Shown one piece after another: positions 9,661-39,436 of a stretch of DNA of 39,701 nt. Source of the DNA: an uncultured Marinoscillum sp. (lineage in GTDB: Bacteria; Bacteroidota; Bacteroidia; Cytophagales; Cyclobacteriaceae); assembly GCA_902605755.1 (NCBI GenBank), contig CACLDR010000016.1, positions 1 through 39,701 of the forward strand. Direction: 5' to 3'. Numbering within the stretch: position 1 is the stretch's first letter; each line of letters opens with the position of its first letter. The translations under genes and the position numbers were made by a program. The notes below the pieces were generated by a model that was not told the origin of the DNA, ran no database searches, and was given only the letters and a program-made list of their open reading frames with translations.

Positions 9661-9725
9661 AGAGCATAAAATGATCCAACTCTTGATTATTTTGATTTAA
9701 TATTTGTTTGTACCAAAAAATCAAA

Positions 9726-13588: not shown

Positions 13589-15274
13589 ACTCTCATCCCT
13601 GATATGAAATTGAATGCCATCTTAGGTGTTTTATTGATAATTTTCCCTTAGAGATTAATTAATAATTACTCTATCATTATACGTTCAAGATTGCAATTTA
13701 AATTTTGATTTTGAGATGAAATTATCAAATTCGCCAAATAGTTATATTTATAGGACTACTCCCACTTTTTAAAATGAACGGACAGCCTTTTTATTAACTG
13801 AAATTCATAATATCATTGAAGGCATAAATGGGGGACTTTCGAATAAAGCAGTCTATAAATCTTTCAAAAAAGGGGCTCATAACTAGGGGCTTGTTCATGC
13901 TACTCAAACCCTGAAAAAAGCATAAAAAAAGGTTATTTATCCAACGCACAATATTTTTTGATGGGCCACTAGGCCAGTACCAAAAACGATAATTCACATA
14001 AAATAACTACCCAAAAAATTATTCCTTTTTAGGGAGCTCAGACCTTGACCCAGCACGCTGAGATCCTCCAAACATATTACATATTGTTACAGTCATCAAT
14101 ATTTTTTTTAGTAATCTACTCCCACATAAGTTCAAAGTTATTCGAAATAAAATTCAGATTTATCAATACAGATTACTAACTATTAAAACCAAATAAATTT
14201 TTCAAAAATATTTTTTAAAGAAAATCTTCAAATATTGAAAAAAATGAATTTTGTTAAGGCAATTAGTTTGTCAAGCAACAATAATATTATTTGTTATATT
14301 TAAAAAGGCACAAAACATTTTAAATGGGCTTCTGAATATATACCAAATTATCAAGGTACTAGAAAGAAATATACGTTTTAAAAAATTAGCTTTTAATAAA
14401 ATTAGTTTTAGCAAATGAAATCAGGAGGAAATTTTAGTCAAATGGGAAATCTCATTTTCAATAGTGTGTTAAAAAAAATTGCGACTAACCTAACCAATTT
14501 GAACTCATTGAGGTTTTAGATAGTATTTACATCAATCTTCTAATACTTGAACATGTGCTAAAGGAGAATGAAATTATGAAACAATCTTTTATCCCTAATT
14601 TTGGAAAGCTAGTAGGTGTGGGCGTTTTGTGTATCGAAAATGTAGATCGACAAATTACACAACCATATCCTGAAATATTCACAAAAAAGTAAATATTTGA
14701 AAATAACATTATGTTAACAAAAATAGAAAAGAACGGAAGCTTTATATAATAGATAATGTTTTTCCAACGGTCAAATCAAACCAAAAATTTTCTATTGCCA
14801 ATCTATTGGCAACCAATAAAATTTTTGATATCATCACAAGCATATTACTTGATACTAGGAGTGGTGAATGGTGATTATGAGCGGAACTATGTTTGAATAC
14901 GTACTTAAGGTAGATAAAAGAGCAATTTCTGATGATTTTGCCAATAAATGAAATCAGATTTCCTACCCAAAATCGGATGATGCGAACTACTTATGAATTT
15001 GCAGTTCAGGAGTTGTATAGTATAATCAGTAAATATGATTGTAAAGATTTTTAATGATTTATTACCCTCATAAATAAACAGTTTTCTCTGATATACTATC
15101 AAACCCTTTATGCTATCCTAAAGTTTTTTTATTATTCTTATTCAAGATAAAACTAATATAAACTATTCATCTACTCTATAATTCCTTGCTTATTAGTTAT
15201 TTAAAATGGACTAAAATTATATTTAATATAATATTTTTAAATCCATTTAAATTTAAGGTTCAAATAATATAATT
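13589..15274. other. 1.7 kb gene-poor spacer
   Basis: No credible full gene. Very AT-rich. It contains several short open stretches whose translations look faintly protein-like: a 34-codon plus-strand frame at 14415-14519, a 38-codon frame at 14576-14692, an open run ending at 14874, and a 15-codon hydrophobic start at 13604-13651. Stops and frame changes between them would fit the decay of one or more genes, but by stop-codon frequency such runs are expected by chance here. No RNA gene or insertion sequence ends are recognised. Confidence 0.4.
14795..14812. repeat. Perfect short inverted repeat
   Basis: TTGCCAA and TTGGCAA (7-bp arms) flank a 4-base loop TCTA, inside the gene-poor spacer. 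There is no T-run, so a terminator is unlikely; an operator-like or chance palindrome is possible. Confidence 0.4.
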
Positions 15275-16747
15275 ATGAAACATATACTCTTATCTGTATG
15301 CCTCTTATGGGGAGGATTCCTTAGTGGACAAGATAGATCCATTGAGATTGATAAAGTGGTTACCACACAACATCAAACAATTATAAAAAATCAAAAAATA
15401 GCTTTTAATGCTACCACGGGGACACAACCCGTATGGGATTCGGCAGGCCAAACTATTGCTGCCGTGCATTATACCTTTTATGAACGGACCGACATAGATC
15501 AAAAACCCATGCGGCCTTTGGTCATTTCCTTCAATGGCGGACCCGGATCAGGTTCTGTTTGGATGCACTTGGCGTATACTGGTCCATCCATTCTTAAAAT
15601 TGATGATGAAGGATTTCCAGTACAACCCTATGGAATCAAAACTAACCCATATTCCATTTTAGACGTTGCAGATATCGTTTTTGTAAACCCAATAAATACA
15701 GGATTTTCTAGAATCACTGATCCCGATGTCAAACGAGAAACTTTCTTTGGTGTAAATGCAGATATTGAGTATTTAGCCGAATGGCTAAATACCTTTGTTT
15801 CAAGAGCCAATAGATGGGAATCTCCAAAATATCTCATTGGTGAGAGTTACGGTACTACCCGTGTATCTGGCTTAGCTCTCCAGCTTCAAGAGGAACAATG
15901 GATGTACTTAAATGGAGTCATATTAGTTTCTCCTACCGAAATTGGCATTGATCGAAATGGTCCCGTCGGTGCAGCCAATGATTTACCTTATTTTACGGCA
16001 ACAGCCTGGTTTCATAGGAAACTGCCAAAAGATTTACAAGAAAAAGATTTAGACGAAATATTGCCAGAGGTAGAGGCTTACACCCTTGAAAAATTAATAC
16101 CCTCATTAGCAAAAGGAGGATTTATAAGTACAGAGGAAAAGCAAACTGTTGCCCAACAAGTTGCACACTATTCAGGCCTATCAAAACAAACCATTTTAGA
16201 TCATAATCTTGCTATTCCTACCTCTTTTTTTTGGAAAGAGTTGCTGCGCTCTGAAGGCCATACCGTGGGACGTTTAGATTCTCGATATAAAGGTATTGAC
16301 CGTAAAAATGCTGGTACTAGTCCAGATTATAATTCAGAATTGACTTCGTGGTTACATTCATTTACACCTGCTGTAAATTATTATTATAAAAATGTACTCA
16401 ATTATCAAACTGACATCAAGTACAATATGTTTGGTCCGGTGCACCCTTGGGATAGGTCCAATAATCAAACAGGAGAAAATCTGAGACGAGCTATGGCCGA
16501 AAACCCTTACTTAAATGTCATGATTCAATCAGGATTCTACGACGGAGCCACTCAGTATTTCGATGCTAAATATACCATGTGGCAAATAGATCCCAGTGGT
16601 CGATTGAAAGATCGATTCAGGTTCGAAGGATACCGTTCCGGTCACATGATGTACCTTCGCAAAGAAGATTTAATCAAAGCTAATGATGATATCAGGGATT
16701 TCATAAAACAGAGCACTCCCGCGGAAGGACAATCTGCTAAATATTAA
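15275..16747 (+). CDS. Exported S10 family serine carboxypeptidase
   Basis: Secreted or periplasmic serine carboxypeptidase-like enzyme (alpha/beta-hydrolase fold) that removes C-terminal residues from peptides. A signal peptide (MKHILLSVCLLWGGFLSG) is followed by the oxyanion block FNGGPGSGS (87-94), DVADIVFVNPINTGFS and the nucleophile Ser191 in LIGESYGTTR. The aspartate lies in the SGFYDGATQYFD region and the histidine in SGHMMYL close to the C-terminus. At 490 residues it is full length. It stands alone between two long spacers; the products of peptide trimming would feed amino acid uptake. Close Bacteroidota homologues are common, so nothing suggests recent transfer. Confidence 0.93.
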   Translation: MKHILLSVCLLWGGFLSGQDRSIEIDKVVTTQHQTIIKNQKIAFNATTGTQPVWDSAGQTIAAVHYTFYERTDIDQKPMRPLVISFNGGPGSGSVWMHLAYTGPSILKIDDEGFPVQPYGIKTNPYSILDVADIVFVNPINTGFSRITDPDVKRETFFGVNADIEYLAEWLNTFVSRANRWESPKYLIGESYGTTRVSGLALQLQEEQWMYLNGVILVSPTEIGIDRNGPVGAANDLPYFTATAWFHRKLPKDLQEKDLDEILPEVEAYTLEKLIPSLAKGGFISTEEKQTVAQQVAHYSGLSKQTILDHNLAIPTSFFWKELLRSEGHTVGRLDSRYKGIDRKNAGTSPDYNSELTSWLHSFTPAVNYYYKNVLNYQTDIKYNMFGPVHPWDRSNNQTGENLRRAMAENPYLNVMIQSGFYDGATQYFDAKYTMWQIDPSGRLKDRFRFEGYRSGHMMYLRKEDLIKANDDIRDFIKQSTPAEGQSAKY

Positions 16748-17616
16748 GCTTGGCATAGGAAAAATTTCAATATCATGCTTAATTGAACAATACCTGCTCT
16801 AATGAGCTTTATCGAGTAGAGGGATAGCCCTTTTTGTTTTATCTTGCAAAGAGATATATTTAATATAAAACTGAAATCAACTTTTCTTTTTAAAAAAAAT
16901 TAAATGTGAAAATTCAATTCTTTTCAATTAATTCTGTTAAGATATAATGAATATTTTTCCAATTCACTGATTGCTTAGTCAAAATGAAAAATCTTGTTTT
17001 CACATTCAGTTATTTTGCAATCCTCATGGCTAATTCTAAACTTGGTAGTCGATATCTCTCTATAGAAATTGTAATTTTTCTGCTCAAAAGTAAACTTTTA
17101 CCAAGATCATCTTGAGTGAGAATTTCTTATTCGTGGGCTCCATTAAATTATTTTTTAGATTTATTTTAGTAGGTTTTATACAAGTGTAACTGATATATAC
17201 TTGATTACAGACATTAATAAAAGAAGGGAACTGATAATAAAAATAATTGAGCCTATTTTTGGAAACATTGAATTTGTTAGGAACATTGCAATAAAAAAAA
17301 GCAATAATTAATAGAGTAGGTAATCCAATTTGTATAATTTGAATTTGATCATATCATCTCGTTCATCTACCATTATTTTCGTTTTAAAAATTAGTTCAAG
17401 CACCTTTTAAGCGATCGAAAATTAAGAACCTAAATTATAACTAACTTTTGTAAAATTGATAATCACACTTGGTTAAAGCTGGTAGATTTTTTTTAATTGA
17501 AAAACAAATGGTACTTTTCACTTATGATATAACAGGATCCCACTTCAATCAAAACCAACTCCATAATAATCACCCATGGAATGTAGAATTATAAAATAAA
17601 ATCTTAGTACAAATTA
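16748..17616. other. 0.87 kb gene-poor spacer
   Basis: No real gene recognised. A plus-strand frame at 16984-17115 (43 codons) starts with a signal-peptide-like MKNLVFTFSYFAILMANS but ends soon after, and an open run ending at 17311 encodes about 50 residues with lysine/isoleucine-rich helical character and no start codon. Both fit gene remnants or chance in DNA this AT-rich. A weak hairpin near 16822-16835 (AGGG/CCCT followed by T) could end transcripts from the upstream peptidase gene. Confidence 0.4.
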
Positions 17617-22847: not shown

Positions 22848-24419
22848 TCACGGAATCGATTCGATCCACTTAATCGTTTCCCAAACTTGCTCTCCCATAT
22901 TAATTTGTTGGACACCAACTGTTGAACGACCATTAAGTATTTGATCCGAAAGTTTATGCATCATGGTATTCACTCTTTTTACTTCAGCACCAGCTATATT
23001 ATGGGCCTCAATCGGATCTTCACTAAGGTTATAAAGTTGGACATTTTGCCATTGTCCAGTAAGCGTATCTCGCGTGGCAAGAATTCCTTTTTGAGACCAC
23101 ATACCCCCTCCACCAGATGAGGTGATTAGCTTCCAATCGCCTTCTATCAAAGATAAAATTCCAGTGCCCGATTGGACAATCAAATCTTCACGGACATTTG
23201 AAGCTGAGCCGTTTAAAAGTGGCAAAATATCAAAGCTGTCGACACCTATTGAATCGTTTAAATCAAACCCAACAATCGAAGCCAAAGTAGAAAAAATATC
23301 AGTTAAAGAAATCAGTGCATCGGATTTCGATGTTTCAGGAATTACTCCTGGCCATCTTGCAATAAATGGTTCTCGATGTCCTGCCTCCCAAGAATCAGAT
23401 TTCAAACCTCTCAAAATACCAGCTGAATTATGACCATAGCTCAGTACTGAGCCTACCTCACCAGTATAATTTTTGCCATCCATATTAGTCGGACCATTAT
23501 CGCTTGTAAAAATGACCAAAGTATGATCTGAAATTCCTAATTGATCCAAAATATCGAGTAATTCTCCTAAATAATGATCTATCTCTACAACAAAATCTCC
23601 ATATTTACCTGCTCCAGAATTTCCCAAAAATGCCTCAGAAGGTGCAATGGGTGTATGCGGGGCAGAGAGCGAAAAAAACAAAAAAAAAGGTTCTCTTGGA
23701 TAGTTAATAGCACGATCTTTTACATAATCAATAGCTTTTTCAGAAATTGTTGGCAATAAATCTTCATATTTCCAGCCTGGCGCCATTGCTCCTGGCGCGC
23801 CGGCATTACCTTTTTCCCACCATTCTGTAGGTAATGTCGTTACCCTATCATTTTCGATAAAAGCATGAGGTGGAAAACTCGGCACATCATCCCCAAAATA
23901 ATAATTAAATCCAAGTTCAGTAGGCCCTCCAGTGATAGCTTTCGCGTAATCAATATTCCTTCCATCTAATTGGGGTGCATCCCCCTTTATGGTTGGCCAT
24001 TGCCATCCTAAATGCCATTTACCGATACACGCGGTATGATAGCCCTTACTTTGAAGCATATCTCCTAAAGTATAATGCTCTAACTTATCTATAATAGGTG
24101 GGTCCCACAACCACGCTACACCAGATTTTTTAGATGATCTCCAACTGTAATTGCCCGTTAATATACTATACCTGGTGGGTGTACACACGGCAGAGGGTGC
24201 ATGGGCGTGAGTGAATACCATTCCTTGTTGGGCTAACTTGTTGAGATAAGGAGTCGGTATTTTTGATTGCTCATTGAGAATTTCAACATCTCCATAGCCC
24301 AGGTCATCCGCTAAAATAAAAATGATATTAGGAGTCTTGCGTGATGGTATTTTTGCCTCAATGAATTTTAACTGACCAAATAAAAATACAATAATAAATG
24401 AGTGAATAAAATATTTCAT
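22848..24419 (-). CDS. Exported type I sulfatase (arylsulfatase A-like)
   Basis: Removes sulfate esters, here probably from a glycan. A signal peptide (MKYFIHSFIIVFLFG) leads to the N-terminal NIIFILADDLGYGD (metal-binding Asp38-Asp39). The formylglycine site is CTPTR (Cys79-Arg83), the C-x-P-x-R form needing a formylglycine-generating enzyme, which is not in this window. Further family blocks are GKWHLGWQWP, PFFLFFSLSAPHTPIAP and VIFTSDNGPTN. The ATG at 24419 is preferred over an in-frame TTG at 24434 because it starts the signal peptide; it lies 4 bases past the upstream stop. Last gene of the glycan operon. Sulfatase subfamily and sugar are not assignable by eye. Confidence 0.94.
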   Translation of the reverse strand: MKYFIHSFIIVFLFGQLKFIEAKIPSRKTPNIIFILADDLGYGDVEILNEQSKIPTPYLNKLAQQGMVFTHAHAPSAVCTPTRYSILTGNYSWRSSKKSGVAWLWDPPIIDKLEHYTLGDMLQSKGYHTACIGKWHLGWQWPTIKGDAPQLDGRNIDYAKAITGGPTELGFNYYFGDDVPSFPPHAFIENDRVTTLPTEWWEKGNAGAPGAMAPGWKYEDLLPTISEKAIDYVKDRAINYPREPFFLFFSLSAPHTPIAPSEAFLGNSGAGKYGDFVVEIDHYLGELLDILDQLGISDHTLVIFTSDNGPTNMDGKNYTGEVGSVLSYGHNSAGILRGLKSDSWEAGHREPFIARWPGVIPETSKSDALISLTDIFSTLASIVGFDLNDSIGVDSFDILPLLNGSASNVREDLIVQSGTGILSLIEGDWKLITSSGGGGMWSQKGILATRDTLTGQWQNVQLYNLSEDPIEAHNIAGAEVKRVNTMMHKLSDQILNGRSTVGVQQINMGEQVWETIKWIESIP

Positions 24420-24423
24420 TGTT

Positions 24424-25629
24424 TTAATGATCAAATTTTAATTTAATGAAGCGAGGTCTATAAATATGAGCATCTTCTTTAATGTCAATCCAAAAATTTG
24501 GTGTGATAGTATTATAACTGATTAAAAGCTCATCGGGTTGTGACAAATTAAAATGTGCTTTCGCGTTATAACACCATAGTCCACTTTCCATTTCAGGTGT
24601 TTGATAGATTTCGTGGATTTCGGAAAAAGGCCCCACTGGTGATGTCCCTATTCGCATACCAACTTTATCAGACAAACCTAACACCTGAAAAATGAGGACA
24701 AATCTACCGTCTGACAATGGTGTAACACTAAGTTCATTGGAAGCTCCATTCACAATTTCATTCAAATTCTCAGGCCTTAAATCCCATTTATTTCCATTCC
24801 AATAACGCCATTCCTTGAAATCTTCAAAATCTTTCGGTTTAACTCTGGCGACAACCAAACTTTTTGTTTGGCCTATACAACCATATACATAGATATGGCC
24901 ATCTGGATTTGGTGCCCCGGCCCAAGTTGTATTTACCAAAATACCGGCACCCAAATTCCCTTCACCAAGATCCTTAATTTTGACATGAAAAGGAGTTGTC
25001 AATTGCCGGTGATCAACATATGGAGGTATCGATCTGTTATTTATTGCAATGATTGAAACATTAGGCTCAACAAAATCAAATACATTTTCTCCAGTTCGTT
25101 CTACATGATAAGCGAAAGCATAAAGGGTATTTGACAATTCTTTATTAACAAAACCATCTCCTAACCAAAAAAAATCATTATCCGAAGCATTTTCATTATT
25201 TGGAATAAAAAGGCTACTTGGATCCCCTTTGGTATCTCGATGAATGTAAAATTCCAAACTATCTGCTATTGGATGATTTCCTTTCAAATAAGCAACTGAA
25301 TTATTAACCATTATAGAATTCTTATCTGGTTTATTTTCCATTACTCGACCAAAATATGTATCACTGAAAAATATTAATGTAGAATCATTTCCCAAATTTC
25401 CCTCCCGATCTACTCCTGTGAGGGGAATAGAAAAAATTCCATCTCCACCAAACCAGCCTTCATTTCTGTAAAATAATTGAGTCCATTCAGGTGCAGCCTT
25501 TACTGTGTAAGATATTTTAAGGTCCGTTTTGACCATTTCCTTTGACCTTGGTAAACAAGTACTTAACAAGCCTATGATAAATAATAGCCCTATTCTATTT
25601 TTGCGAATTGTATTAGTCCAAACCCTCAT
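24424..25629 (-). CDS. DUF4185/DUF5005-type lipoprotein, first paralogue
   Basis: Predicted lipoprotein (LLSTC, then a polar linker), 401 residues, with a beta-propeller-like body. Landmarks are EGWFGGDGIFSIPL, LIFFSDTYFGRV, NSIMVNNSVAY, DFFWLGDG, HIYVYGCIG and the terminal DELLISYN...YRPRFIKL. This matches the DUF4185/DUF5005 group of presumed glycosidases; mycobacterial DUF4185 enzymes have been described as endo-D-arabinanases (family GH183). The neighbouring gene upstream encodes a clear relative (shared GDT/SDT strand, RVGEG/RTGEN, DELIISYN and YRPKFIKV blocks). Located in the glycan operon, it is probably a surface or periplasmic hydrolase, but linkage and substrate are unknown. Confidence 0.72.
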   Translation of the reverse strand: MRVWTNTIRKNRIGLLFIIGLLSTCLPRSKEMVKTDLKISYTVKAAPEWTQLFYRNEGWFGGDGIFSIPLTGVDREGNLGNDSTLIFFSDTYFGRVMENKPDKNSIMVNNSVAYLKGNHPIADSLEFYIHRDTKGDPSSLFIPNNENASDNDFFWLGDGFVNKELSNTLYAFAYHVERTGENVFDFVEPNVSIIAINNRSIPPYVDHRQLTTPFHVKIKDLGEGNLGAGILVNTTWAGAPNPDGHIYVYGCIGQTKSLVVARVKPKDFEDFKEWRYWNGNKWDLRPENLNEIVNGASNELSVTPLSDGRFVLIFQVLGLSDKVGMRIGTSPVGPFSEIHEIYQTPEMESGLWCYNAKAHFNLSQPDELLISYNTITPNFWIDIKEDAHIYRPRFIKLKFDH

Positions 25630-25665
25630 GTTTTGAACAAAAAATTCCTAATAAGCAAAGTCCAC

Positions 25666-26901
25666 TTATTGCCAATTTTCAACTTTAATAAACTTTGGAC
25701 GATATAAATCTGCATTGTCAAAAAGTGACCAAAAATCAAAACTGTTAATGTTATATGAAATAATTAATTCATCATTCATTGAAAGCTCTGGATGTACAAA
25801 TGAATTATAAGTAAATACATCACCACCTGTCTCAGGTGTACAATAAACTGTTTTTTTACCATGCCAAGGTCCTATTGGAAAATCAGATTCGAACAACTGT
25901 ATTTCCTTTCCAAATATAATCTGATGAGTAAGTAAGTAATATTTACCGTTTTTTTTAAAAACACTAAACTGATCAGAAACCCCGTCATGTATTCGATAAT
26001 TCGAAGGTTCTAAAACCCATTCTGACCCGTTATAAAATTCCCAAACTGCCCTTAAATCACCACCAGAAGCGCGGGCAACATGTGCGTATTTGTTATATCC
26101 CACCGTTGTAATTCCGTAAATATAAGTGTAGTCTTTGTCTTCCATCAAAGTGGAGCCATAAGAGATTTCAGATGAAGGTATTTTCATAGTTAGCGATTTA
26201 AGTGTTAAATCAGGCAATGAAAAAATCGCTAAGTCAACTTGCTTGTAGGCAAATCCCCACATGCCCTCCCCCACACGTTGCATATGAGCCAGCAGCATCT
26301 GCAATTCACCATTATAAACTGTAGCATCAAAAGGCCAATACCAATCATCAGTTTCATTCGGCACCACTAAAGCCTTCGGATTAGTTCTCGTACCTCCGTA
26401 AAGGGTAACAAACTCATTTTCATCCGTTATAACAAAAGTATTATTAATCATTTTTGATTGATTCCTCGTACGGTCTTTATTAACAGTACCAATAAATGTA
26501 TCTCCAAACATCCAAAGCACACGTCCATCGGATAAAGGCACGGAATAGGTGGCATCAGCACCTGTCCAACCATTCTCATAACGCGTAAACATTTGATCCC
26601 ATTTACAATATTTAGAGGTTTTTACACCATCCCAACACGAACTTGATACCTCAACATCTGTACAGGATATATGTTCTAAAATTAATTCATCTCTAATTAA
26701 TGAAGACATAATTCCGACCTGTGGAAGAGCTGCATCATAAATATCATTTGTGATCTCTTGTTCATTAGCATTATTAACCGAGTCCGAATCATAAATACCC
26801 GTATCAAATAAACTTTTATCTCGTGAAACAGAAAATTTTGGTGAATCTTCTGAGCAGGCAGTCAATAAAAAAGAAATAATATAAAAATAAATCTTTTTCA
26901 A
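25666..26901 (-). CDS. DUF4185/DUF5005-type lipoprotein, second paralogue
   Basis: Predicted lipoprotein with lipobox LTAC (Cys16), 411 residues. After an acidic linker of about 60 residues the propeller-like domain has ENGWTGADATYSVPLSDGR, LWMFGDTFIGTVN, KMINNTF, WYWPFDA, YTYIYGI and ends in DELIISYN and LYRPKFIKV. It is a diverged paralogue of the downstream gene. The start is TTG: a signal peptide MKKIYFYIISFLLTAC begins precisely there, and the TTG overlaps the upstream TGA as TTGA. The overlap implies translational coupling with the SASA esterase gene. Conserved acidic residues near the GD and SD strands would be the candidate active site. Activity not established. Confidence 0.74.
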   Translation of the reverse strand: MKKIYFYIISFLLTACSEDSPKFSVSRDKSLFDTGIYDSDSVNNANEQEITNDIYDAALPQVGIMSSLIRDELILEHISCTDVEVSSSCWDGVKTSKYCKWDQMFTRYENGWTGADATYSVPLSDGRVLWMFGDTFIGTVNKDRTRNQSKMINNTFVITDENEFVTLYGGTRTNPKALVVPNETDDWYWPFDATVYNGELQMLLAHMQRVGEGMWGFAYKQVDLAIFSLPDLTLKSLTMKIPSSEISYGSTLMEDKDYTYIYGITTVGYNKYAHVARASGGDLRAVWEFYNGSEWVLEPSNYRIHDGVSDQFSVFKKNGKYYLLTHQIIFGKEIQLFESDFPIGPWHGKKTVYCTPETGGDVFTYNSFVHPELSMNDELIISYNINSFDFWSLFDNADLYRPKFIKVENWQ

Positions 26902-28874
26902 AATCGTGCATCTTTGGAATTATACTCATTTCCTTCAGTTATTCCTTGCCACTCATCCGTTCGAAAAGGAGCTAAGGGCCACCCTTCTTTGTTATGAAGA
27001 TCTAAAGGTCCAGGATTTGAAGACCATGCGTACCTGACAGCTATGGGTCTCTCTACTTTATCACAAGACAACTCTATCTCATCATTTAAAATCCTAGCCT
27101 TAGCCCAGTAAAATTTTTGATCTTCACCGGACATTGCAAATCCCCGGATATAACCATATTTATCTCTAACTACGAGATCTTTCAACGGTTGATCGATTTT
27201 CACATATACGTGATTACCCTCAATACGATGACTTTTATAATTGGGAGATAAATTATAACGTTCACCATAAGCTAGGTTTAATGCTGTTATTGCAGATCTT
27301 CTACCAACCTCTACTTTATTTTTGGGGTGAATATCGTAAGCATCTCCGATATCAATTGTTACAACTCTCCCGACATGCAATAATTTTAAGGCCTTATCTT
27401 GAGCCATGCGCATCTCAGACCATGATTGATCTATTGGATCGGAAACTTCTTGCAAATAATTGGGCAATTGTACATAAAGAAAGGGTAATTCAAAATCTCC
27501 AAAATGTGCTCTCCAATCAACAATCATTTGAGGGAAAAGAGATTGATATTCATGAGCCCGATTCACATTGCTTTCTCCTTGGTACCAAAATATCCCTTTA
27601 ACCTTAAGTTTAGTAATCGGAGCAATATTACCATTAAATAAAACCCCTGGTGAGGAAAAAGGGCTGATATTTAAGATCCTAGGAGCTTTAAAATTATCGG
27701 CATTAATAGCAGTACCCTTATGATACTTCCAGTCACCCCAAATTATTGGATTCCCCCAAAAAGCATGAGTTGTGAAACCTCCATTCCCCCCTATATCAAA
27801 TACTCTAACGGCGATTACATTATCCTTAGGATCTAATGCGTTAGTATCCACACTATAATTTCGAAAATTATGACGGCCGTACGTTTCTCCTATTTTTTTA
27901 CCATTAACCCAAACCATGTCATAATCATCTATCTGATTCAATTGGACCTTAAATTTTGGAAGATCATAACCTTCAGGAAGATCGAAGGTCTTTCGAAACC
28001 AGACAGCACCGTCATGATCTACTAAAGTGGTATCTAATTTTTCCCAAAATCCGGAAACTTTCATTTCCATCCAATCACTATCATCTAAACCTTTTTCAAA
28101 CCACTTCAAATCAAATCCTATTCCATTCAAATAATATTTTTTCTCCCAACCTTCTTTGATCTTTTCAAAATCAATCATGAGCTCATCAGATGATTTGTTG
28201 TGAGCTACTATTAAACTCACTTCCTCTTTAAATTGAGGAAAATTTAACAAAGCATCATTAGACATCCACGCCTCAATTGAACTTGATCCCAAACTGATAT
28301 TAATTAAGCCAATCGGCACACCTATCTCTCGAATTAATTTTTTCCCAAAATAATAACTTACAGCAGAAAAATTACGCATACTTTCCTCATCTAGCAACTG
28401 CCAAATACCTCCTTTTAAATCATCCTTGGGTAAATAATCAGTATCGATGTATGCTTTAAATAACCGTAGATCAGTATTCAAAAAGTTCGTGTCAGTCTCC
28501 TGATAATCAAACTGATAATTGGTCCATTCCATATTTGATTGGCCAGCACAGATCCATAAATCCCCAATCAAAATATTTTCAAAAATTAATTGATTTTCTG
28601 ATCCTTTTACATTTAAAATAAAAGGTCCACCAGCAGACATCGGAGGTAAATCAAGTATCCACTCTCCATTTTCATCTACCTTAACTTGATCAATCATAGT
28701 ACCGAATTGAATTGATATCAACTCCAATGGAGTACCCCAACCCCATAATGTGATAGGCCGATTTCTTTGCAATACCATATGATTATTAAAAATTTTAGGC
28801 ATTTTGACCTCACAAATACCAGGTATTAATATACTTACAAAAAAAAATGAAATAATCAATAATTGTTTTACCAT
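26898..28874 (-). CDS. SASA-type (sialate O-acetylesterase-like) carbohydrate esterase
   Basis: Exported esterase that removes O-acetyl groups from sugars; the SASA name reflects the sialate acetylesterases, but plant and algal glycan acetylesterases share it. A signal peptide (MVKQLLIISFFFVSILIPGI) leads to MPKIFNNHMVLQR, the GDLWICAGQSNMEW block with catalytic Ser113, and a later WYQGESN plus the DIHPKNK motif with the catalytic histidine. A jelly-roll insert (about 245-380, FRKTFDLP...VWVNGKKIGETYG) resembles the galactose-binding-like insert of these esterases. 658 residues. It overlaps the upstream FG-GAP gene by 7 bases and the downstream paralogue by 4, so it is tightly coupled to both. 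Confidence 0.92.
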   Translation of the reverse strand: MVKQLLIISFFFVSILIPGICEVKMPKIFNNHMVLQRNRPITLWGWGTPLELISIQFGTMIDQVKVDENGEWILDLPPMSAGGPFILNVKGSENQLIFENILIGDLWICAGQSNMEWTNYQFDYQETDTNFLNTDLRLFKAYIDTDYLPKDDLKGGIWQLLDEESMRNFSAVSYYFGKKLIREIGVPIGLINISLGSSSIEAWMSNDALLNFPQFKEEVSLIVAHNKSSDELMIDFEKIKEGWEKKYYLNGIGFDLKWFEKGLDDSDWMEMKVSGFWEKLDTTLVDHDGAVWFRKTFDLPEGYDLPKFKVQLNQIDDYDMVWVNGKKIGETYGRHNFRNYSVDTNALDPKDNVIAVRVFDIGGNGGFTTHAFWGNPIIWGDWKYHKGTAINADNFKAPRILNISPFSSPGVLFNGNIAPITKLKVKGIFWYQGESNVNRAHEYQSLFPQMIVDWRAHFGDFELPFLYVQLPNYLQEVSDPIDQSWSEMRMAQDKALKLLHVGRVVTIDIGDAYDIHPKNKVEVGRRSAITALNLAYGERYNLSPNYKSHRIEGNHVYVKIDQPLKDLVVRDKYGYIRGFAMSGEDQKFYWAKARILNDEIELSCDKVERPIAVRYAWSSNPGPLDLHNKEGWPLAPFRTDEWQGITEGNEYNSKDARF

Positions 28875-31800
28875 TCAAATAAAGGATTAATTTTAAAAAA
28901 ATTCAAATTCCCATTATTTGAGGCTACTGATAAATAAGGTACCTCCCCAACCATAACTTTTTTTATATTCCTAACTTCTCCTGAGAGAAAATTCCCAAGT
29001 AAATGCGTAGGCAAAACTTTGAAATCACCTTCTCCAGTTCCCAAAGCTAATATTCCTCTAGATGCATCAAGATTACCTATAGTCACATTAATTCCTGAGT
29101 TATTACCTGCCGCTATCAAGTCTAAATAGCCGTCATCATTAAAATCAGAAACAAGAAGTGCCTCAACACTTGACCACTGGAATACTTTAGGAAGTGGCTT
29201 AAATGTAAAATTGCCTGAACCTTGATTTTCAAAATAAGACGAATTTAAAGTTTGAATTTGATTTTCATAAAGAATTTTATCCCCTTGTTGTCTTATCAAA
29301 TCATTTGTTGTGAATTGTGCATACGCTTGATAAGAAGGAAAAATAGTCTGGAAATTTTTCGATGCCCTTAGCATAGTTGACCTACTGTATATAGGAAAAC
29401 TCGCATACTTTCCATCTATCAATGGGTAAAAAGTAGTAATGATACCGACACAATTAGTTTCACCTCTAGGACAATAGCCGAAAAGACGTATAGGAAACTC
29501 TTGCGAAACATTCAACCCTGAATTCAATCCCATGTTCCCTGCTACTAAATCAAGGTCTCCATCATTATCAAAATCGCCTGTCACCAAACTTCTCCAATTG
29601 CCGGCAGATCCAATCAAACTTCTTTTCTTAAATCCCTCTCCCAGACTATTAAACAAAATAGTGACCTCCATCCATTCACCTACCACTGCAATATCAGGCC
29701 ATTGATCATTATTAATATCTACTACTTTCGCATCAGTCACCATCCCCAAATCTTTCAAGTCATCAAAATTAGGACCTAAAACTGAACTAAATGAACCCTC
29801 CTCATTACTGAAAAGCCAACTATCAACGGGTTTCCCATAAGCTTGCAAATCAATCTGACCTGTTCTAAATAAATCAAGGTCTCCGTCTTGATCAAAGTCT
29901 ATAGTCAAAATTTTGGAACCTGGAATTTTGGTAGGTTCAATACGGTCTTGTGAAATTGTAAAAGTTCCATTATTATTGATTAATAGCTCATCTTGATAAG
30001 AACCTTTTTTAAATATATTCTCAGTTCCACCAGATAGGATATAAAGATCATCATCGCCGTCATTATCGCAATCAAAAAATATAGCATCCGTTTCCTCAAC
30101 AAAAGCTCTTCCAGTGACTCTTTCTTCATTCCTTCCTGAAAAATCAAAAAAAATCCCATTAAAGCCTTGCGAACCCGTCAAATAAAATAAAATTGAATCT
30201 TTACTTTCCTCACTGGAAATAGTCAAAACAGGTCCTGTATTTGAATATTTCCATGGGAGTAAGGGATATCGATCAAAATCATCATACTCTAATTCTTCAT
30301 GAATTAAATCGATCGCTTGAGCTTCTACAAATAAAAGAACATCTTCCTTTTGGAATCTTTTTCTAGGAATACTTAAATCATGTATAATATTATAAGTATT
30401 CCCGTTTTTGAGGTCATAGAGCCATGAACTATTTCCATCATACCAATCCACCCGTAAAGAATCGACAAACTCATACTCCCCCAATCCAATAATCATAACT
30501 TCTCCTACTGTTGACATATAACCTCTGCTGAGGTAATATTCAAACTTCTGAACTTGTGTATTTACGAATGCAGTGATTACGCTTCCTATCCCTCTACGAT
30601 TGAATTTGGAGCCTTTCAATTTTAGACCAATTGAATTTCCAAGTATGCCATTTTCCAAAATACTTGCTTCAGCATTGGAGTTGTTAGTTACCAAATCAAT
30701 ATCGCCATCCAAATCAATATCACCATAGGTAGCGCCAGAAGAAACTCCTACAAAAGTCTTTATCCCAGATTCCTGAAAAGTTGAATCGTTCTTATTCCAG
30801 AAAATTAAATTATTCGCATTAACTCTGTCCAAATCCTGAATTAATGCCAGATAAAGACTATCGATTTTTTTAATTGAACTAAAGGTGGATCGATTCTTTC
30901 TATAAGCTATAAAATCTTGATTGGTAATATCCTTAAGATAACCATTACTGATAAAGATATCTTTAAAGCCATCCAAATTCAAATCGACAAACAAAGGCGC
31001 CCAGCTCCAATCTGAGCTACTAATATTAGCATATTGCCCAATTTCACTGAACTTATTGATACCAAGAGTCACTCCTACGTTGAGCTGTAAAGTGTTTCTG
31101 GGATATTGAGGCTCATAACCCATGGAAGCTGCCGCCGACTGTAAATTAGTATTAAGATTATTTGCCATCATCACTCTAGATTGCCTTGCTCTAGGCAGCA
31201 TATCTACCACCAAAATATCGGGTAATTCGTCATTATTAAAATCTGCCAAATCATTACCCATACCGTTAAAAGATTGATGACTTAAGATCCTATTAATTTC
31301 ATTTGCAAAAGTACCATTGCCCTGATTGATATAAAGAATATCATTCGAAATAAAATCATTCGAAATATATAAATCTGGCCAGCCATCGATATTAAAATCC
31401 GCAACACCAATGCCTAATCCAAAGCCCTCAACCATGATTTTAGCTTGTTTTGAAACATCAACATATATTGGGTGGTCTAAAGAATCGAACCAATCACACC
31501 TTAACAATCGATCCATATTAACTGCACTCCCATCAAACTTTCTTGCAATGGGATCATTAACATTTTTAAATTGATTAGAATGATTTAATAAGTACATGTC
31601 TAAATCACCATCTAAATCATAATCTAAAACCGCTGCATGAGTAGAATAATCAGTGAAAGCAAGACCATAATCAGCAGCTGATTCGGTGAAAGTCATATCC
31701 TTATCATTTATGTAGAGAAGGTTCTTTCGCTTAACAGATTGTTTTTCACCCGCTACTGATACATACAAATCTAACCAGCCATCCTGATTAAAATCTTCAA

Positions 31801-32155
31801 CTAATACACCAGTGCACCAAACATTAGAACTTAGGCCTGCCTTTTCAGTAACATCTTGAAACTTCAAATTTCCCATATTTTGATAGAGCGTATTTGAAAC
31901 CTTATTACCGGCAAAGAATAAATCTTCTAGCCCATCATTATTAAAGTCACCCAAACCCGTGCCTGCTCCATTAAAAAAATACATGTAATCGATAATTGAA
32001 AAATTTGAGTCAATTTCGATTTTATTATTAAATGCCACACCAGTATAATCACTAGGAAGTGCATGTATAGATTGCTGCTTTTGTGAACAGTCATATAGCC
32101 AAAAACCACTCAGAAGAAGTATTATTTTATGCCAATCAACTTTTGATATATCCAT
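28868..32155 (-). CDS. FG-GAP/VCBS repeat lipoprotein with ASPIC/UnbV domain
   Basis: A 1095-residue surface protein typical of Bacteroidota PUL-type loci. A short hydrophobic segment ends in LYDC, a likely lipidated Cys. Then come about a dozen calcium-binding repeats of the type DxNxDGxxDL: examples are DFNNDGLEDL, DFNQDGWLDLYV, DYDLDGDLDMYL, DIDLDGDIDL, DFDQDGDLDLFR and DFNDDGYLDLIAAGN, forming two seven-bladed-propeller-like arrays. Between them lies an ASPIC/UnbV region (RRGIGSVITAF ... DSLRVDWYDGN). The role of such proteins is unproven; substrate or calcium binding at the cell surface is the usual inference. Its ATG lies 34 bases inside the CE7 gene and its end overlaps the SASA gene by 7 bases, so it is cotranscribed with catabolic enzymes. 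Confidence 0.9.
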   Translation of the reverse strand: MDISKVDWHKIILLLSGFWLYDCSQKQQSIHALPSDYTGVAFNNKIEIDSNFSIIDYMYFFNGAGTGLGDFNNDGLEDLFFAGNKVSNTLYQNMGNLKFQDVTEKAGLSSNVWCTGVLVEDFNQDGWLDLYVSVAGEKQSVKRKNLLYINDKDMTFTESAADYGLAFTDYSTHAAVLDYDLDGDLDMYLLNHSNQFKNVNDPIARKFDGSAVNMDRLLRCDWFDSLDHPIYVDVSKQAKIMVEGFGLGIGVADFNIDGWPDLYISNDFISNDILYINQGNGTFANEINRILSHQSFNGMGNDLADFNNDELPDILVVDMLPRARQSRVMMANNLNTNLQSAAASMGYEPQYPRNTLQLNVGVTLGINKFSEIGQYANISSSDWSWAPLFVDLNLDGFKDIFISNGYLKDITNQDFIAYRKNRSTFSSIKKIDSLYLALIQDLDRVNANNLIFWNKNDSTFQESGIKTFVGVSSGATYGDIDLDGDIDLVTNNSNAEASILENGILGNSIGLKLKGSKFNRRGIGSVITAFVNTQVQKFEYYLSRGYMSTVGEVMIIGLGEYEFVDSLRVDWYDGNSSWLYDLKNGNTYNIIHDLSIPRKRFQKEDVLLFVEAQAIDLIHEELEYDDFDRYPLLPWKYSNTGPVLTISSEESKDSILFYLTGSQGFNGIFFDFSGRNEERVTGRAFVEETDAIFFDCDNDGDDDLYILSGGTENIFKKGSYQDELLINNNGTFTISQDRIEPTKIPGSKILTIDFDQDGDLDLFRTGQIDLQAYGKPVDSWLFSNEEGSFSSVLGPNFDDLKDLGMVTDAKVVDINNDQWPDIAVVGEWMEVTILFNSLGEGFKKRSLIGSAGNWRSLVTGDFDNDGDLDLVAGNMGLNSGLNVSQEFPIRLFGYCPRGETNCVGIITTFYPLIDGKYASFPIYSRSTMLRASKNFQTIFPSYQAYAQFTTNDLIRQQGDKILYENQIQTLNSSYFENQGSGNFTFKPLPKVFQWSSVEALLVSDFNDDGYLDLIAAGNNSGINVTIGNLDASRGILALGTGEGDFKVLPTHLLGNFLSGEVRNIKKVMVGEVPYLSVASNNGNLNFFKINPLFEW

Positions 32156-33453
32156 TCGTCTGTCAACATTTTTTGCTCAGGGTAAGCGTAATGCCCTGCA
32201 TCATTCATAATACTCAATTCTTTGGGTGCGCTGATGACATTATACATACTTTGAATGGAAGTTGGAGGACAACTTTCATCATTATAACCCCAACAATAAT
32301 AACCCGGTACTTTTAATATCCTGGCAAAATTTACAACATCATAATACTTAGATGTCTCAATTTTGTCATTTTTAGCGTGAAATACGCCATTCTTTTTATC
32401 AAATAAGTGAGGCCATCCCCCTGCACGGCCGTTAAGATACCCTGTTAAATCGCAAAGTGCGGGGTAAGAAGAAACTAAATAATCAACTCTTTGATCCAAT
32501 GCCGCCATCACGATAGCCAATGCACCTCCTTGACTGCCTCCACTGACACCTAAATCTTCCTGATTAAATTGCGGCAAACTATGAATAAAATCAACAGCCT
32601 TTACACACCCCGAGTAGACCCTTCGATAATAATAAAGCTCTTTATTATCCAAATTAAAAGTCCAATAATCATTTAAAGCGGCATTCCACAATTCCCCATA
32701 TATTTCGTTGTAATCATCCATTACCACAGGAATTCCATGAATTCGAATGTCCAATACAATCATACCTTTAAGAGCATCAGTATCTTGAAACATAAAATGT
32801 GACCAAACACCTGCTCCCGGAACCTTGATTAATGCAGGGAACTTTGTCCCATTTTTAGGAACAGACAAAACACCATAAATATAGCTGCCCAACTTATAAT
32901 TTTGAAACTTCACATGGTAAACATCTAGTTTTTCATCACTCAATTCCTCAATTTTAGTTAATTTGGAATTAAGTGGTATGTCCTTATTTTGCATAAGGGT
33001 CTGTTTCCAAAAATCTTCAAAATCCTCAGGCATCGTAGTAGTTGGAATTATTTGATGACTTGCAAAAGCAACTGTAGCCATCCCCTCGTAAATTTTCCCC
33101 TCATTCGTGAGAGTAACTTTGCACCTAAGATAGCCTGGTACACTCATCCTCTGTGGCGCAAGGGTTGCTCTACCATTTTTGAGTTGAAGAATGCCGCTAT
33201 CAACAGGTTCCATCTTTTCTGGCATGATTTGATAATTTACCTTACCCTCAATTGGATTCCCATTTTTGTAGACCGAAACGCTAAATAAAACAGATTCACC
33301 TAGTTTGTAATTCCAATCGTTTTTATCTGCGGAAACAATGACCCTTACAGGTGTATAGCTCGGCCCCCACTGTCCATAAGTCAACGAGAAAGTAGAAAAA
33401 ATAAAACATACTAAAATAAACTTTACAAAACTTATCATTGAATTTGATCTCAT
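32122..33453 (-). CDS. CE7-type acetyl xylan esterase/cephalosporin C deacetylase-like enzyme
   Basis: Exported alpha/beta-hydrolase deacetylating small sugars or oligosaccharides. The signal peptide (MISFVKFILVCFIFSTFSL within the first 30 residues) precedes an N-terminal beta domain. The AXE1 domain has VSGGSQGGALAI (Ser307), WGYNDESCPP (Asp392) and NDAGHYAYPEQ (His421), the complete triad. Start: ATG at 33453 is used because it adds the basic n-region; a GTG at 33471 and an ATG at 33438 are alternatives. 443 residues, longer than cytoplasmic CE7 enzymes (about 320) because of the N-terminal domain. A second, unrelated esterase (SASA type) is three genes away, so acetylation is a major feature of the target glycan. 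Ends overlapping the FG-GAP gene by 34 bases. Confidence 0.9.
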   Translation of the reverse strand: MRSNSMISFVKFILVCFIFSTFSLTYGQWGPSYTPVRVIVSADKNDWNYKLGESVLFSVSVYKNGNPIEGKVNYQIMPEKMEPVDSGILQLKNGRATLAPQRMSVPGYLRCKVTLTNEGKIYEGMATVAFASHQIIPTTTMPEDFEDFWKQTLMQNKDIPLNSKLTKIEELSDEKLDVYHVKFQNYKLGSYIYGVLSVPKNGTKFPALIKVPGAGVWSHFMFQDTDALKGMIVLDIRIHGIPVVMDDYNEIYGELWNAALNDYWTFNLDNKELYYYRRVYSGCVKAVDFIHSLPQFNQEDLGVSGGSQGGALAIVMAALDQRVDYLVSSYPALCDLTGYLNGRAGGWPHLFDKKNGVFHAKNDKIETSKYYDVVNFARILKVPGYYCWGYNDESCPPTSIQSMYNVISAPKELSIMNDAGHYAYPEQKMLTDEWIYQKLIGIK

Positions 33454-33523
33454 TTCCAAACCTTTAAACACAAATTACTTGAGATTAAGTTAAATTATCA
33501 AATGATGTATATCTCTAAGATAC

Positions 33524-36325
33524 TCATTCAAACTTATTTGTAAATGGTGCATCGCTTGGAAGTATCCCCAAATTAACATTAGGCATACTTCCAAGTGTTA
33601 GGCGTAGCTCGCCTCCTTTTTCAAAATCACTATGATAAAACCATATTTTATTCAAAGGAATATCATTGAGATAAATAGATTGAATATATCTATTCTCAGT
33701 CCCATTATTTTCTGAGATGATTTTAAAAGTATCGCCAGAATAATAGTCCTTATTTAAATGAATAATTACCTCATCGAATACAGGACTGGTAATTTCATAA
33801 ATTGGTGCTGCAGAATTATTCCCCCTCAGACTAAAGAGTCCCATTGACATTAAAGCACTTATACCACCCATCTGTCCCTCATCTTCGTCGTGCCCTCCAT
33901 ACCCACTTTCGGGCGTAATATCACCATAAGCACGTTCATTAACTTCACGGACCCAGAACTGTGTCATCCATGGTTTTCCTACATAATTAAACACGTGCGC
34001 GCTTGAGCATCCCGGTTGATTGGCATAACTAACATATCCGTTTCCATATCCATAAACAAAATCGTCAACTACCGATTTTTCAAATGCGTAGTTAAGCTTA
34101 AATGCTAAACTATCATTACCATTCATAAGTCGAGATAGTGTTGGGATATCATGAGAAACTTGCCACGATCCTTGCCATGAATTAGATTCCACCCAACCCC
34201 TCATACTTAATGGATCGTCATGTAACCATTCTCCATTTTCGTCTTTTGGAAAAATTAATCCCTTTTCTGACCTATAAAGGTTGGTCCAATTATTTGCTCG
34301 ATTATTATAATAATTGTACTCTTTAAACTTTCCCATCTTTTTTGCCATTTGCGCTAAAGACCAATCTTGAAACGACCATTCCAGTGTTTTTCCAGCATTA
34401 CCAGGACAATATCCATTATCGATATAAAATTGTAGTTCCTCCGGTGTATCCCCCATCATTCCACCTGGTTTATGATTTTTATTCATAATGTCAAAGGCAA
34501 CCTTTGGCGATGTTTTATTCATAATACCCTTTTGATAAGCACTCACCAGAAGGCTAGTGGCAGGATTACCCGTCATAATATAAGAATATCCGCCAACATT
34601 AGGACCTCTCGGAAGTAGACCCCCATTCTTAGCATATTGAACTAAAGACGCAGAAAAATCATCTAGAATTTCAGGCCAAGCAAGACCCCAAAGGACATTA
34701 AGATTCCAGTGAGTCAACCAAAGGGCATCTGAATTGTACATGTTAAATAACGGTTTTCCTAATTTATTCATAGGAAGTTTTCTTACCTTCAAATCAGATT
34801 TTGTGAACTTCCAATTCCTCTCTCCCTGCGTGTAATCTGGATAGGTTCCTTTCACATCGTTTATAATCTTACGACCCAATAAAACATGCCATAAATCCGT
34901 GTAGAATTTAATCTGTTGCTGATCACTACCGCCGATTACCTCTACACGTTGTAACATTTCATTCCATTCGTACTCGGCATTTTCTTGCACCAAATCAAAA
35001 TCCCAATGATCCAATTCCGCATTTAGATTTTCCCAAGCATTTTCATTACTCGTATAAGAAATAGCGATTTTAACCAAAATTTGATCACCCGCTCCTACCT
35101 GGTAATTAGCCATAAGTCCAGCCGTTGGAGCATCCCAATAACTTTGTACTACTACTTCATAATCCATTGAGTCACGTCGAGTCATGTGATCTGAGCCATC
35201 GATTTGAGAAATATTTCCTTCAATCCCATGCTCGTTCCAACCACTTACAGATTCAAAAGATTTACTGAATTCCATAACAAAAAAGACTTTTATTTTTTCT
35301 GGACCACCCCAAAGTCTTCCTCCGGAATAGAAAGAACCCTCTATTTTGTATTCATTTACTACTTTCGATTTAGCTCCTGACATTGTCGTGTTTCCCAAAT
35401 AACCTCCCAAATTAATCAAAATGGAGGCTCGATCAGATTGAGTATAAGTCATTCTAAAAATACTAGCCCTAGTTGTTCCAGTATATTCTACCCACGTATT
35501 ATAGTCTTTTAAATATACTCTTTGGTAACCAGGGTGTGCCAATTCATCATCATGACTAAATCTTGATTTCCAATGAGTCTCTCCGAGAGTCGGATCTATG
35601 ATGCCCGTAGTTGGCATCATTTGAATACCAGACATCATCCAGCCATGTATTGGACTAAAGCCCAATATCTCCGTTGAATTATAATTATAGCCCCCACCAT
35701 ATTGATTTTTGTTACGTGTAATGGGTGAAGTCGCTACCATCCCAAAAGGTAATGCACCAGGAGTAAAATAAAAATATCTTCCTCGAGTTGTCTCTGTAAA
35801 TGGATTCACCCATGAAATCTGGTCTTGAAAACTTTTAGATGATGGAAATACTTCAATTTCCGATAATCCTAATTCTAGACCTACGCCATCGGTGACCTCA
35901 AAACGAACCCAATCAACCTGCTTGCTCTCAAAAGTTATTACCTTTGCATCACCATTATTAGACATGGCATTCACTGATATAACTGATCCGTCACTGAACT
36001 TTAAACGCCCTCCAGCAGTATGTGTTTCTAAAGATGCCCGATCATATAGAATGATTTTATTAATGTTTTGAGAGGTATCCCAATCAAGCTGAATCCAAGG
36101 GTACCTGATATATCCCCAAAAAGTACCACTACCTTCACAAGCCCATTCGCCTTTTTCCGCGATTCTTATGATTCCGTCAATCGCGTTTTTTGCATCATAA
36201 TGATTATTTAGATTACTCGAAGATGTAACCGTTGCAAACAATGCGATATTTTTAGGTCCGGAAAACGCTTTTTCTGAAAAAAAGAAAAAAAAGAAGATTA
36301 TTAATTTTAACTTCAACAGTTTCAT
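33524..36325 (-). CDS. GH92 family alpha-mannosidase with N-terminal discoidin-like domain
   Basis: Exo-acting calcium-dependent alpha-mannosidase, exported by a signal peptide (MKLLKLKLIIFFFFFFS). Residues about 25-165 form an F5/8 type C-like (galactose-binding) domain: NIALFATVTSSSN ... YPWIQLDWDTSQNINKIILYDR. The GH92 region runs from WVNPFTETTRGRYFYFTPGALPFGM to near the end. Catalytic-region landmarks are GWVESNSWQGSWQVSHD, with the likely acid glutamate, and GGHDEDEGQMGG (812-819), the equivalent of the usual GN(D/E)DxGQ. The following ISALMSMGLFSL differs from the common SAWYVFSALGFYP, so it is a divergent subfamily. Start at ATG 36325 overlaps the upstream stop as TAATG; 36337 is a possible alternative. 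Linkage (1,2, 1,3, 1,4 or 1,6) is not deducible. Confidence 0.93.
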   Translation of the reverse strand: MKLLKLKLIIFFFFFFSEKAFSGPKNIALFATVTSSSNLNNHYDAKNAIDGIIRIAEKGEWACEGSGTFWGYIRYPWIQLDWDTSQNINKIILYDRASLETHTAGGRLKFSDGSVISVNAMSNNGDAKVITFESKQVDWVRFEVTDGVGLELGLSEIEVFPSSKSFQDQISWVNPFTETTRGRYFYFTPGALPFGMVATSPITRNKNQYGGGYNYNSTEILGFSPIHGWMMSGIQMMPTTGIIDPTLGETHWKSRFSHDDELAHPGYQRVYLKDYNTWVEYTGTTRASIFRMTYTQSDRASILINLGGYLGNTTMSGAKSKVVNEYKIEGSFYSGGRLWGGPEKIKVFFVMEFSKSFESVSGWNEHGIEGNISQIDGSDHMTRRDSMDYEVVVQSYWDAPTAGLMANYQVGAGDQILVKIAISYTSNENAWENLNAELDHWDFDLVQENAEYEWNEMLQRVEVIGGSDQQQIKFYTDLWHVLLGRKIINDVKGTYPDYTQGERNWKFTKSDLKVRKLPMNKLGKPLFNMYNSDALWLTHWNLNVLWGLAWPEILDDFSASLVQYAKNGGLLPRGPNVGGYSYIMTGNPATSLLVSAYQKGIMNKTSPKVAFDIMNKNHKPGGMMGDTPEELQFYIDNGYCPGNAGKTLEWSFQDWSLAQMAKKMGKFKEYNYYNNRANNWTNLYRSEKGLIFPKDENGEWLHDDPLSMRGWVESNSWQGSWQVSHDIPTLSRLMNGNDSLAFKLNYAFEKSVVDDFVYGYGNGYVSYANQPGCSSAHVFNYVGKPWMTQFWVREVNERAYGDITPESGYGGHDEDEGQMGGISALMSMGLFSLRGNNSAAPIYEITSPVFDEVIIHLNKDYYSGDTFKIISENNGTENRYIQSIYLNDIPLNKIWFYHSDFEKGGELRLTLGSMPNVNLGILPSDAPFTNKFE

Positions 36326-39428: not shown

Positions 39429-39436
39429 GGAGTAAA

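Follow-up and report, generated by a model that had tools for sequence, protein, structure and literature searches.

A conserved pair of DUF5005- and DUF4185-type lipoproteins with predicted GH183-like propellers at an α-mannosidase locus of Bacteroidota

What might two adjacent, distantly similar lipoproteins cleave, and in which compartment, when they are encoded beside a member of an α-mannosidase family? The question is raised by positions 24,424–26,901 (minus strand) of contig CACLDR010000016.1 from an uncultured Marinoscillum sp. (assembly GCA_902605755.1). The window that we analysed is this whole contig of 39,701 bases, and its source genome is 1.76 Mb in length and 68% complete. Two complete open reading frames (ORFs), here called P2 and P1, together occupy exactly that span and are separated by 36 bases. 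On balance we favour, with modest confidence, the reading in which P2 and P1 are retaining glycosidases of the cell surface and periplasm that remove from an acylated, sulfated α-mannan-type glycan a substituent other than mannose, possibly one like D-arabinofuranose.

The two proteins share 28% identity in a BLASTP alignment (110 of 394 columns; E = 3e-36), a similarity that is, as judged by sequence, far above chance, and the blocks originally listed as common to them are present in both (SDT or GDT, DELLISYN or DELIISYN, and IYRPRFIKL or LYRPKFIKV). In Pfam, P1 scores 51.7 bits against DUF4185, above the cut-off of 39.5, and 24.3 bits against DUF5005, below the cut-off of 29.6. P2 scores 94.1 bits against DUF5005, above the cut-off, and 38.9 bits against DUF4185, 0.6 under it. 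All eight other P2-clade proteins that were scanned (the clades are defined below) pass DUF5005; their DUF4185 scores range from 28.7 to 56.6 bits, and six of the eight pass that cut-off as well; two scanned P1-clade relatives match DUF4185 only (DUF5005, 0 of 2). Going by these scores, the border between the two Pfam families is not sharp: the name GH183-type (DUF4185) protein is justified for P1, and P2 is best described as a DUF5005, GH183-like protein that falls just outside GH183 by the tests used, its clade having members on both sides of the border. A Pfam search for DUF5005 across 295 genomes of the class returned matches in only two, the window genome and G420; P2-clade proteins from outside those two genomes do pass DUF5005 when scanned whole.

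AlphaFold2 models were built from 18-row alignments (mean predicted local distance difference test of 85.7 for P1 and 75.9 for P2) and compared with solved structures using VIA-align. Among the matches listed, the Bacteroides ovatus protein 4hbs is the closest solved structure to both models (P1: Z = 34.8, 330 residues aligned, root-mean-square deviation (rmsd) of 2.7; P2: Z = 36.9, 326 residues, rmsd of 2.5), and the nearest propeller of a characterized enzyme is that of EndoMA1 (P1: Z = 27.9, 306 residues, rmsd of 3.5; P2: Z = 26.2, 298 residues, rmsd of 3.5), a five-bladed fold (PMC10509167). Among the matches listed, these two lead all other rows by 6 Z units or more; the next family there is GH159 (20.2 for P1 and 20.1 for P2), and chains of GH43, GH62 and GH117 reach 17–20. 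Sequence searches of the PDB linked P2 to 4hbs (6.6e-31) and P1 to 4hbs (2e-6) and EndoMA1 (1.5e-5). The original prediction had placed the pair in a DUF4185/DUF5005 superfamily and proposed a structural comparison with GH183 and GH43-type propellers; the Pfam scores and the comparisons of both models agree on that superfamily with a GH183-like fold, and EndoMA1 scores above the GH43-type chains.

A 12-row profile alignment that covers most of the EndoMA1 propeller (residues 32–324) aligns EndoMA1 Asp33 with Asp63 of P1 and Asp116 of P2, and Asp51 with Asp90 of P1 and Asp134 of P2; the Asn of an EndoMA1 D51N chain falls in the same column as the latter two. In EndoMA1, Asp33 is the nucleophile and Asp51 the acid/base, and D33N, D51N, E243A and E243Q nearly abolish activity (PMC10509167). 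Dysgonomonas DgGH4185b needs D170 and D188, is broadly active as the E381A variant and uses a retaining mechanism (PMC10115798). Of 86 sequences collected, 74 entered the residue table and tree; the other 12 were excluded (10 had no profile match and 2 had short matches, one of the 2 being a Nocardia GH183-like row). Both Asp residues are kept in all 74 aligned homologues (72 distinct), including 21 of 21 P2-clade rows, which answers the original call to check for conserved catalytic acids; assignment to a non-catalytic family or loss of all pocket acids is set aside by this invariant dyad and the GH183-like placement. The third-acid site, EndoMA1 Glu243, differs between clades: it is Glu in 47 of 47 P1-clade and 6 of 6 third-clade rows, and in the P2 clade 17 Gln, 3 Ser and 1 Glu (n = 21). 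In 18 of the 21 P2-clade rows an acid (Asp or Glu) directly precedes this site and could partly replace the third Glu there.

The tree of the 74 rows contains a P2 clade of 21 rows (support 100/96), a P1 clade of 47 (99/94) and a third clade of 6 (100/98). The only DNA repeat found between the P1 and P2 genes is 24 nt in length at 75% identity, so the duplication is not recent; together with the separate, well-supported clades, this rules out a recent local event and agrees with the old duplication first proposed. The order P2 then P1 recurs in seven lineages (the genus of the window and those of loci L010, L074, L073, L098, L106 and L086), and the P1 members of all of these except L086 form one 11-row clade (100/99). 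From these sequences we regard P2 and P1 as an old pair that is maintained together. Several loci carry P1-clade copies only, and some of these carry two. The nearest named relatives (L003–L009, Flammeovirgaceae/Cyclobacteriaceae metagenome genomes), which are probably marine as read from their sample names, have P2 proteins that are 82–93% identical and the same gene order as the window as far as each locus extends, with some ORFs broken. A search for a phage origin gave no match better than E = 0.01. A plasmid search yielded a Hymenobacter locus with the order ROK, ManA, sugar porter, DUF4185, SASA and DUF4185, as well as the Nocardia GH183-like gene used for alignment.

Two further forms of the P1 clade were seen. 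At L094:15312-17252 and L096:4061-6031, the DUF4185 region lies inside proteins of 646 and 656 amino acids with extra N-terminal sequence, adjoining GH38-cluster genes. A lone P1-clade gene on a very long branch (L013:9635-10969) comes from a metagenome genome of the Thermoguttaceae (Planctomycetota) that carries the label goat colon.

The signal peptides suggest where the two proteins act. P2 has the lipobox LTAC (Cys16) and P1 has LSTC (Cys25); among six close relatives, the P1 lipobox reads LSAC or LTAC in five (L004, L006, L007, L009 and L090) but not in L003. The lipoprotein export signal (LES) of Bacteroidota comprises a polar or basic residue and then acids just after the lipid-bearing Cys (PMC5080379). 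P2 continues C-SEDS, and most close P2 relatives C-EDE; C-SED matches the LES pattern, although the published consensus may not be that of the lineage of the window. Two or more acids at positions +2 to +5 after the lipobox Cys occur in 12 of 17 P2-clade rows versus 0 of 32 P1-clade rows, under a rule that is looser than the published consensus and among rows that share ancestry; the count covers rows with a lipobox in these two clades, leaving out 4 of the 21 P2 and 15 of the 47 P1 rows and the six third-clade rows. Across the seven pair lineages, the acidic signal is found in six P2 proteins and in no P1. P2 is therefore most likely to be at the surface and P1 in the periplasm, as far as signal sequences can tell. 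The original suggestion of separate substrates is not supported as it was put: it is one possibility, and separate compartments fit the sequences at least as well.

The pair lies in a minus-strand run of nine genes that encodes, in order, a ManA-like protein, a sugar porter, GH92, an AXE1 esterase, an FG-GAP/ASPIC protein, a SASA esterase, P2, P1 and a sulfatase (Table 1). The esterase gene upstream overlaps P2 by 4 bases and the sulfatase gene downstream overlaps P1 by 11 bases. In congener G041, two sets of c2/c5 genes (one member of each cluster was scanned, giving TonB-plug/SusC-type and SusD) and a ROK kinase precede the run. Among 43 loci (42 fetched plus the window), none of them chosen at random and several being adjoining fragments of one genome, we counted ROK/ManA in 24, GH92 and SASA in 20 each, and the sugar porter in 17; each neighbour cluster takes its label from one or a few members that were scanned. 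Five loci (L092–L096; families f77, f98 and f106) have cluster c13, two scanned members of which are GH38, and lack GH92. In 148 genomes of the family, a ManA-like protein at 50% identity or more accompanies 14 of 21 genomes with a P1 match (either clade, E ≤ 1e-5) versus 6 of 127 without (Fisher P = 2e-10), in a hand-picked set that omitted a G074 match (141 residues, 58%); with all ManA-like matches at E ≤ 1e-40 the counts are 14 of 21 versus 17 of 127 (P = 9e-7). The two genes lie 2.7–13.8 kb apart in all 14 genomes that have both, measured to one hand-picked P1 match per genome.

Table 1 Features of the window
Feature	Positions	Strand	Remarks
P2	25666-26901	-	411 aa; DUF5005-type lipoprotein, GH183-like propeller (predicted); Asp116/Asp134, Gln311; LTAC-SEDS, LES-like acids
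P1	24424-25629	-	401 aa; DUF4185-type lipoprotein, GH183-like propeller (predicted); Asp63/Asp90, Glu299; lipobox without LES-like acids
P2 Asp116 codon	26554-26556	-	aligned with EndoMA1 nucleophile Asp33
P2 Asp134 codon	26500-26502	-	aligned with EndoMA1 acid/base Asp51
P2 Gln311 codon	25969-25971	-	aligned with P1 Glu299 (EndoMA1 Glu243 by alignment)
P1 Asp63 codon	25441-25443	-	aligned with EndoMA1 Asp33
P1 Asp90 codon	25360-25362	-	aligned with EndoMA1 Asp51
P1 Glu299 codon	24733-24735	-	aligned with EndoMA1 Glu243
Class I mannose-6-phosphate-isomerase-like (ManA-like) protein	37689-39461	-	590 aa; weak manA match, 30 bits
Sugar-porter major facilitator superfamily transporter	36325-37680	-	
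GH92 (α-mannosidase family), N-terminal DUF7402/F5_F8-type domain	33524-36337	-	
AXE1-type acetyl esterase	32122-33471	-	Pfam
FG-GAP / UnbV_ASPIC repeat protein	28868-32155	-	Pfam
SASA-type carbohydrate esterase	26898-28874	-	Pfam
Sulfatase	22848-24434	-	Pfam Sulfatase, 165 bits; C-T-P-T-R stretch

As ROK/ManA, GH92 or GH38 and the sugar porter recur around the pair, mannose is very likely to be one product of the locus; the co-encoded GH92, two esterases, sulfatase, porter and ManA-like protein make an acylated, sulfated α-mannan-type glycan the most likely target. The link to mannan made at the outset thus fits GH92, the ManA-like protein and the sugar porter, but its proposed mannan side chain could also be of the D-arabinose or fucose type, given the second-aldose module of relatives. 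A literature search for coccolith mannan as a substrate found nothing. Pfam gave no match at E ≤ 0.01 for the ManA-like protein of the window, and the manA match is confined to residues 397–576, with none in the N-terminal half. An 894-amino-acid ORF in another pair lineage (L106:11779-14463) matches ROK kinases at residues 4–183 and this ManA-like protein at residues 320–886, such that two mannose steps appear, from sequence, to be fused.

A second module accompanies the pair outside the genus of the window. All six non-genus pair lineages encode a UxuA-like dehydratase, a DUF4432 protein and a short-chain dehydrogenase/reductase of the aldose-dehydrogenase cluster, all within the gene cluster of the pair and at most approximately 20 kb from it, and several also have an SMP-30 lactonase and a fumarylacetoacetate hydrolase (FAH)-type hydrolase in the module. 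The UxuA-like gene (at least 55% identity) is present in all five non-genus pair genomes versus 1 of the 26 remaining non-genus genomes with DUF4185 (P = 3.5e-5), or 2 of 26 if a short match in G087 is counted (56 residues, 64%; P = 1.2e-4); these counts were entered by hand and leave out the four genomes of the genus. By analogy, this oxidative module resembles Route III, which has been described for L-fucose, L-rhamnose and pentoses (PMC6336799). The released second sugar could be D-arabinose, which fits the GH183 precedent, or it may be L-fucose, L-rhamnose or another aldose. Because mannosides are the substrates of GH92 and GH38, P1 and P2 are the natural candidates to release this sugar. 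GH172 was set aside as a partner, as it occurs in only 12 of 35 DUF4185 genomes and in none of the four of the genus.

In the reading that we favour, the nucleophile would be the first of the two conserved Asp residues, and the second one, which lies in the GDT/SDT strand, would serve as acid/base. Surface-exported P2 would trim or open the glycan outside, in an exo or endo manner, and periplasm-facing P1 would finish imported oligosaccharides; both would release the second, non-mannose sugar, plausibly a furanose such as D-arabinofuranose. Several observations count against it. P2 has Gln311 where EndoMA1 has Glu243, and E243Q leaves EndoMA1 nearly inactive, although the E381A variant of DgGH4185b broadly retains activity. 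EndoMA1 Arg198, which holds the −2 and −3 sugars (PMC10509167), has no aligned Arg in P1 (Gln254 there) or P2, which may mean that neither protein binds D-arabinan itself; Arg198 is perhaps a feature of one enzyme and not of the GH183 family. The Mycobacterium tuberculosis endo-D-arabinofuranase 8an0 reaches Z = 19.3 and 17.7, no better than GH43-type chains. The P2 of L106 has no lipobox by the rule used and no acids directly after the Cys, a ManA-like relative was not found in 7 of 21 genomes with a P1 match, the UxuA-like query was taken from a pair locus, and clade- and family-level counts share phylogeny and are not independent. In the genus of the window (its genome and three congeners that are 94–99% complete), the UxuA-like dehydratase is found in 0 of 4 genomes, as are DUF2961/GH172 and Fucose_iso_C, and the FAH-type protein has only a remote match (34% identity) in 3 of 4. 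With the UxuA-like gene lacking, these bacteria may use the released sugar in another way or leave it unused. The original remark that nothing else points to arabinan holds in the genus for GH172, Fucose_iso_C, the UxuA-like gene and, but for that remote match, the FAH-type protein; no further genes of the module were searched for.

The proteins could also be ordinary GH183 enzymes, both of them endo-D-arabinanases that act on mycobacterial-type lipoarabinomannan or a similar D-arabinan. The superfamily and Asp dyad match EndoMA1, six of eight P2-clade relatives pass the DUF4185 cut-off, and Dysgonomonas gadei has two consecutively numbered DUF4185 genes, both active on arabinogalactan (PMC10115798); moreover, the mannose and D-arabinose of lipoarabinomannan would account for the two catabolic modules in relatives, that is, a mannose module and a Route III-type aldonate module of the kind described for pentoses and deoxyhexoses (PMC6336799). 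We nevertheless consider this unlikely: Arg198 is missing from both proteins and Glu243 from P2, GH172 was not found in 23 of the 35 DUF4185 genomes, among them all four of the genus, and the sulfatase in the operon does not point to a mycobacterial target. It is somewhat less doubtful that P1 and P2 have the same specificity and differ in location alone, which would explain the acidic signal in P2 and not in P1 and the single pair order in seven lineages, although the third acid switches between the clades (Glu in 47 of 47 versus 17 Gln, 3 Ser and 1 Glu of 21), the loops differ and several loci have P1-clade copies only, some of them two.

The Gln in P2 and its surface-type signal would also suit a former enzyme that now binds glycan at the surface without cleaving it, with P1 alone performing cleavage. 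Retention of both Asp residues in 21 of 21 P2-clade rows would be needless for binding, however, and DgGH4185b tolerates loss of the third acid (PMC10115798), so we hold a non-catalytic P2 to be quite improbable. We think it very unlikely that the two are inverting exo-glycosidases of the GH43/GH117 kind that target L-arabinofuranose, xylose or anhydrogalactose in algal glycans. The general fold is shared with the GH43, GH62 and GH117 chains (Z = 17–20), but EndoMA1 and 4hbs exceed the other rows by at least 6 Z units among the matches listed, and the Asp of the GDT/SDT strand, aligned with EndoMA1 D51, is invariant; in EndoMA1 this acid/base sits elsewhere than the GH43 acid (PMC10509167).

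A more specific proposal, which we offer only tentatively, is that the P2 (DUF5005) clade is a new GH family or GH183 subfamily that has the Asp dyad of GH183 with Gln in place of the third Glu and that, with a periplasmic P1-type partner, makes up a conserved two-step system for stripping a D-arabinofuranose-like branch from α-mannans. On that proposal, GH183-type chemistry would serve Bacteroidota for debranching mannans in general, beyond the cutting of arabinan. The DUF4185 enzymes assayed in PMC10509167 and PMC10115798 have D-arabinanase activity, and the one paper found to name DUF5005 is, going by its title and abstract, a metagenome survey. A conserved surface and periplasm pair at α-mannan loci of several families would offer a route to other targets of the superfamily and may reveal a so far unrecognized mannan substituent; P1 and P2 are also a natural test of the need for the third active-site Glu.

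Other features of these loci were noted. A family of mostly 680–780 amino acids (15 members at 10 loci; for example, L012:13448-15757 and L093:7827-9899, also L012:11119-13434) lies beside DUF4185 genes; two scanned members (L012:13448-15757 and L093:7827-9899) had no Pfam match at E ≤ 0.001, and the family is a candidate enzyme of DUF4185 loci. In a congener, a prolipoprotein diacylglyceryl transferase and a 734-amino-acid protein without a Pfam match (L109:7883-9025 and 8988-11192) sit between the ROK kinase and SusC/D-type genes, and L100 (G515) has both clusters. One scanned member of cluster c0 is DUF4961. Within the window, positions 13589-15274 and 16748-17616 are long stretches without ORFs of at least 100 amino acids that flank a gene (15275-16747) resembling, by eye, a serine carboxypeptidase. 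Promoter and terminator scans gave 70 and 13 hits, versus 69.0 and 10.1 in shuffles.

The closest known systems are the GH183 endo-D-arabinanases EndoMA1 (8hhv and 8ic1), DgGH4185a/b and Rv3707c. P1 and P2 are like them in propeller fold and in the aligned Asp nucleophile and acid/base; P1 retains the third Glu, and the 18-residue spacing of the Asp residues in P2 equals that of D33–D51 in EndoMA1 and D170–D188 in DgGH4185b. They differ from GH183 in that Arg198 is not aligned, in the Gln of P2 at Glu243 and in their setting at an α-mannosidase locus instead of an arabinan locus, and both are too short for the carbohydrate-binding-module-like C-terminal domain of EndoMA1. Their closest solved relative, 4hbs (BACOVA_04882, a putative hydrolase), is 30% identical to P2 in the structural alignment and has both Asp positions; the same protein is a structural match of EndoMA1 (PMC10509167) and also turns up in PMC9671378. 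The sulfated α-mannan loci of marine Bacteroidota (PMC13063451) combine GH92 and sulfatase, as here. GH195, GH92 and two sulfatases from those loci were active and 18 other putative enzymes were inactive on mannan, and the available part of that report names no DUF4185 or DUF5005 protein, the families to which the pair described here belongs.

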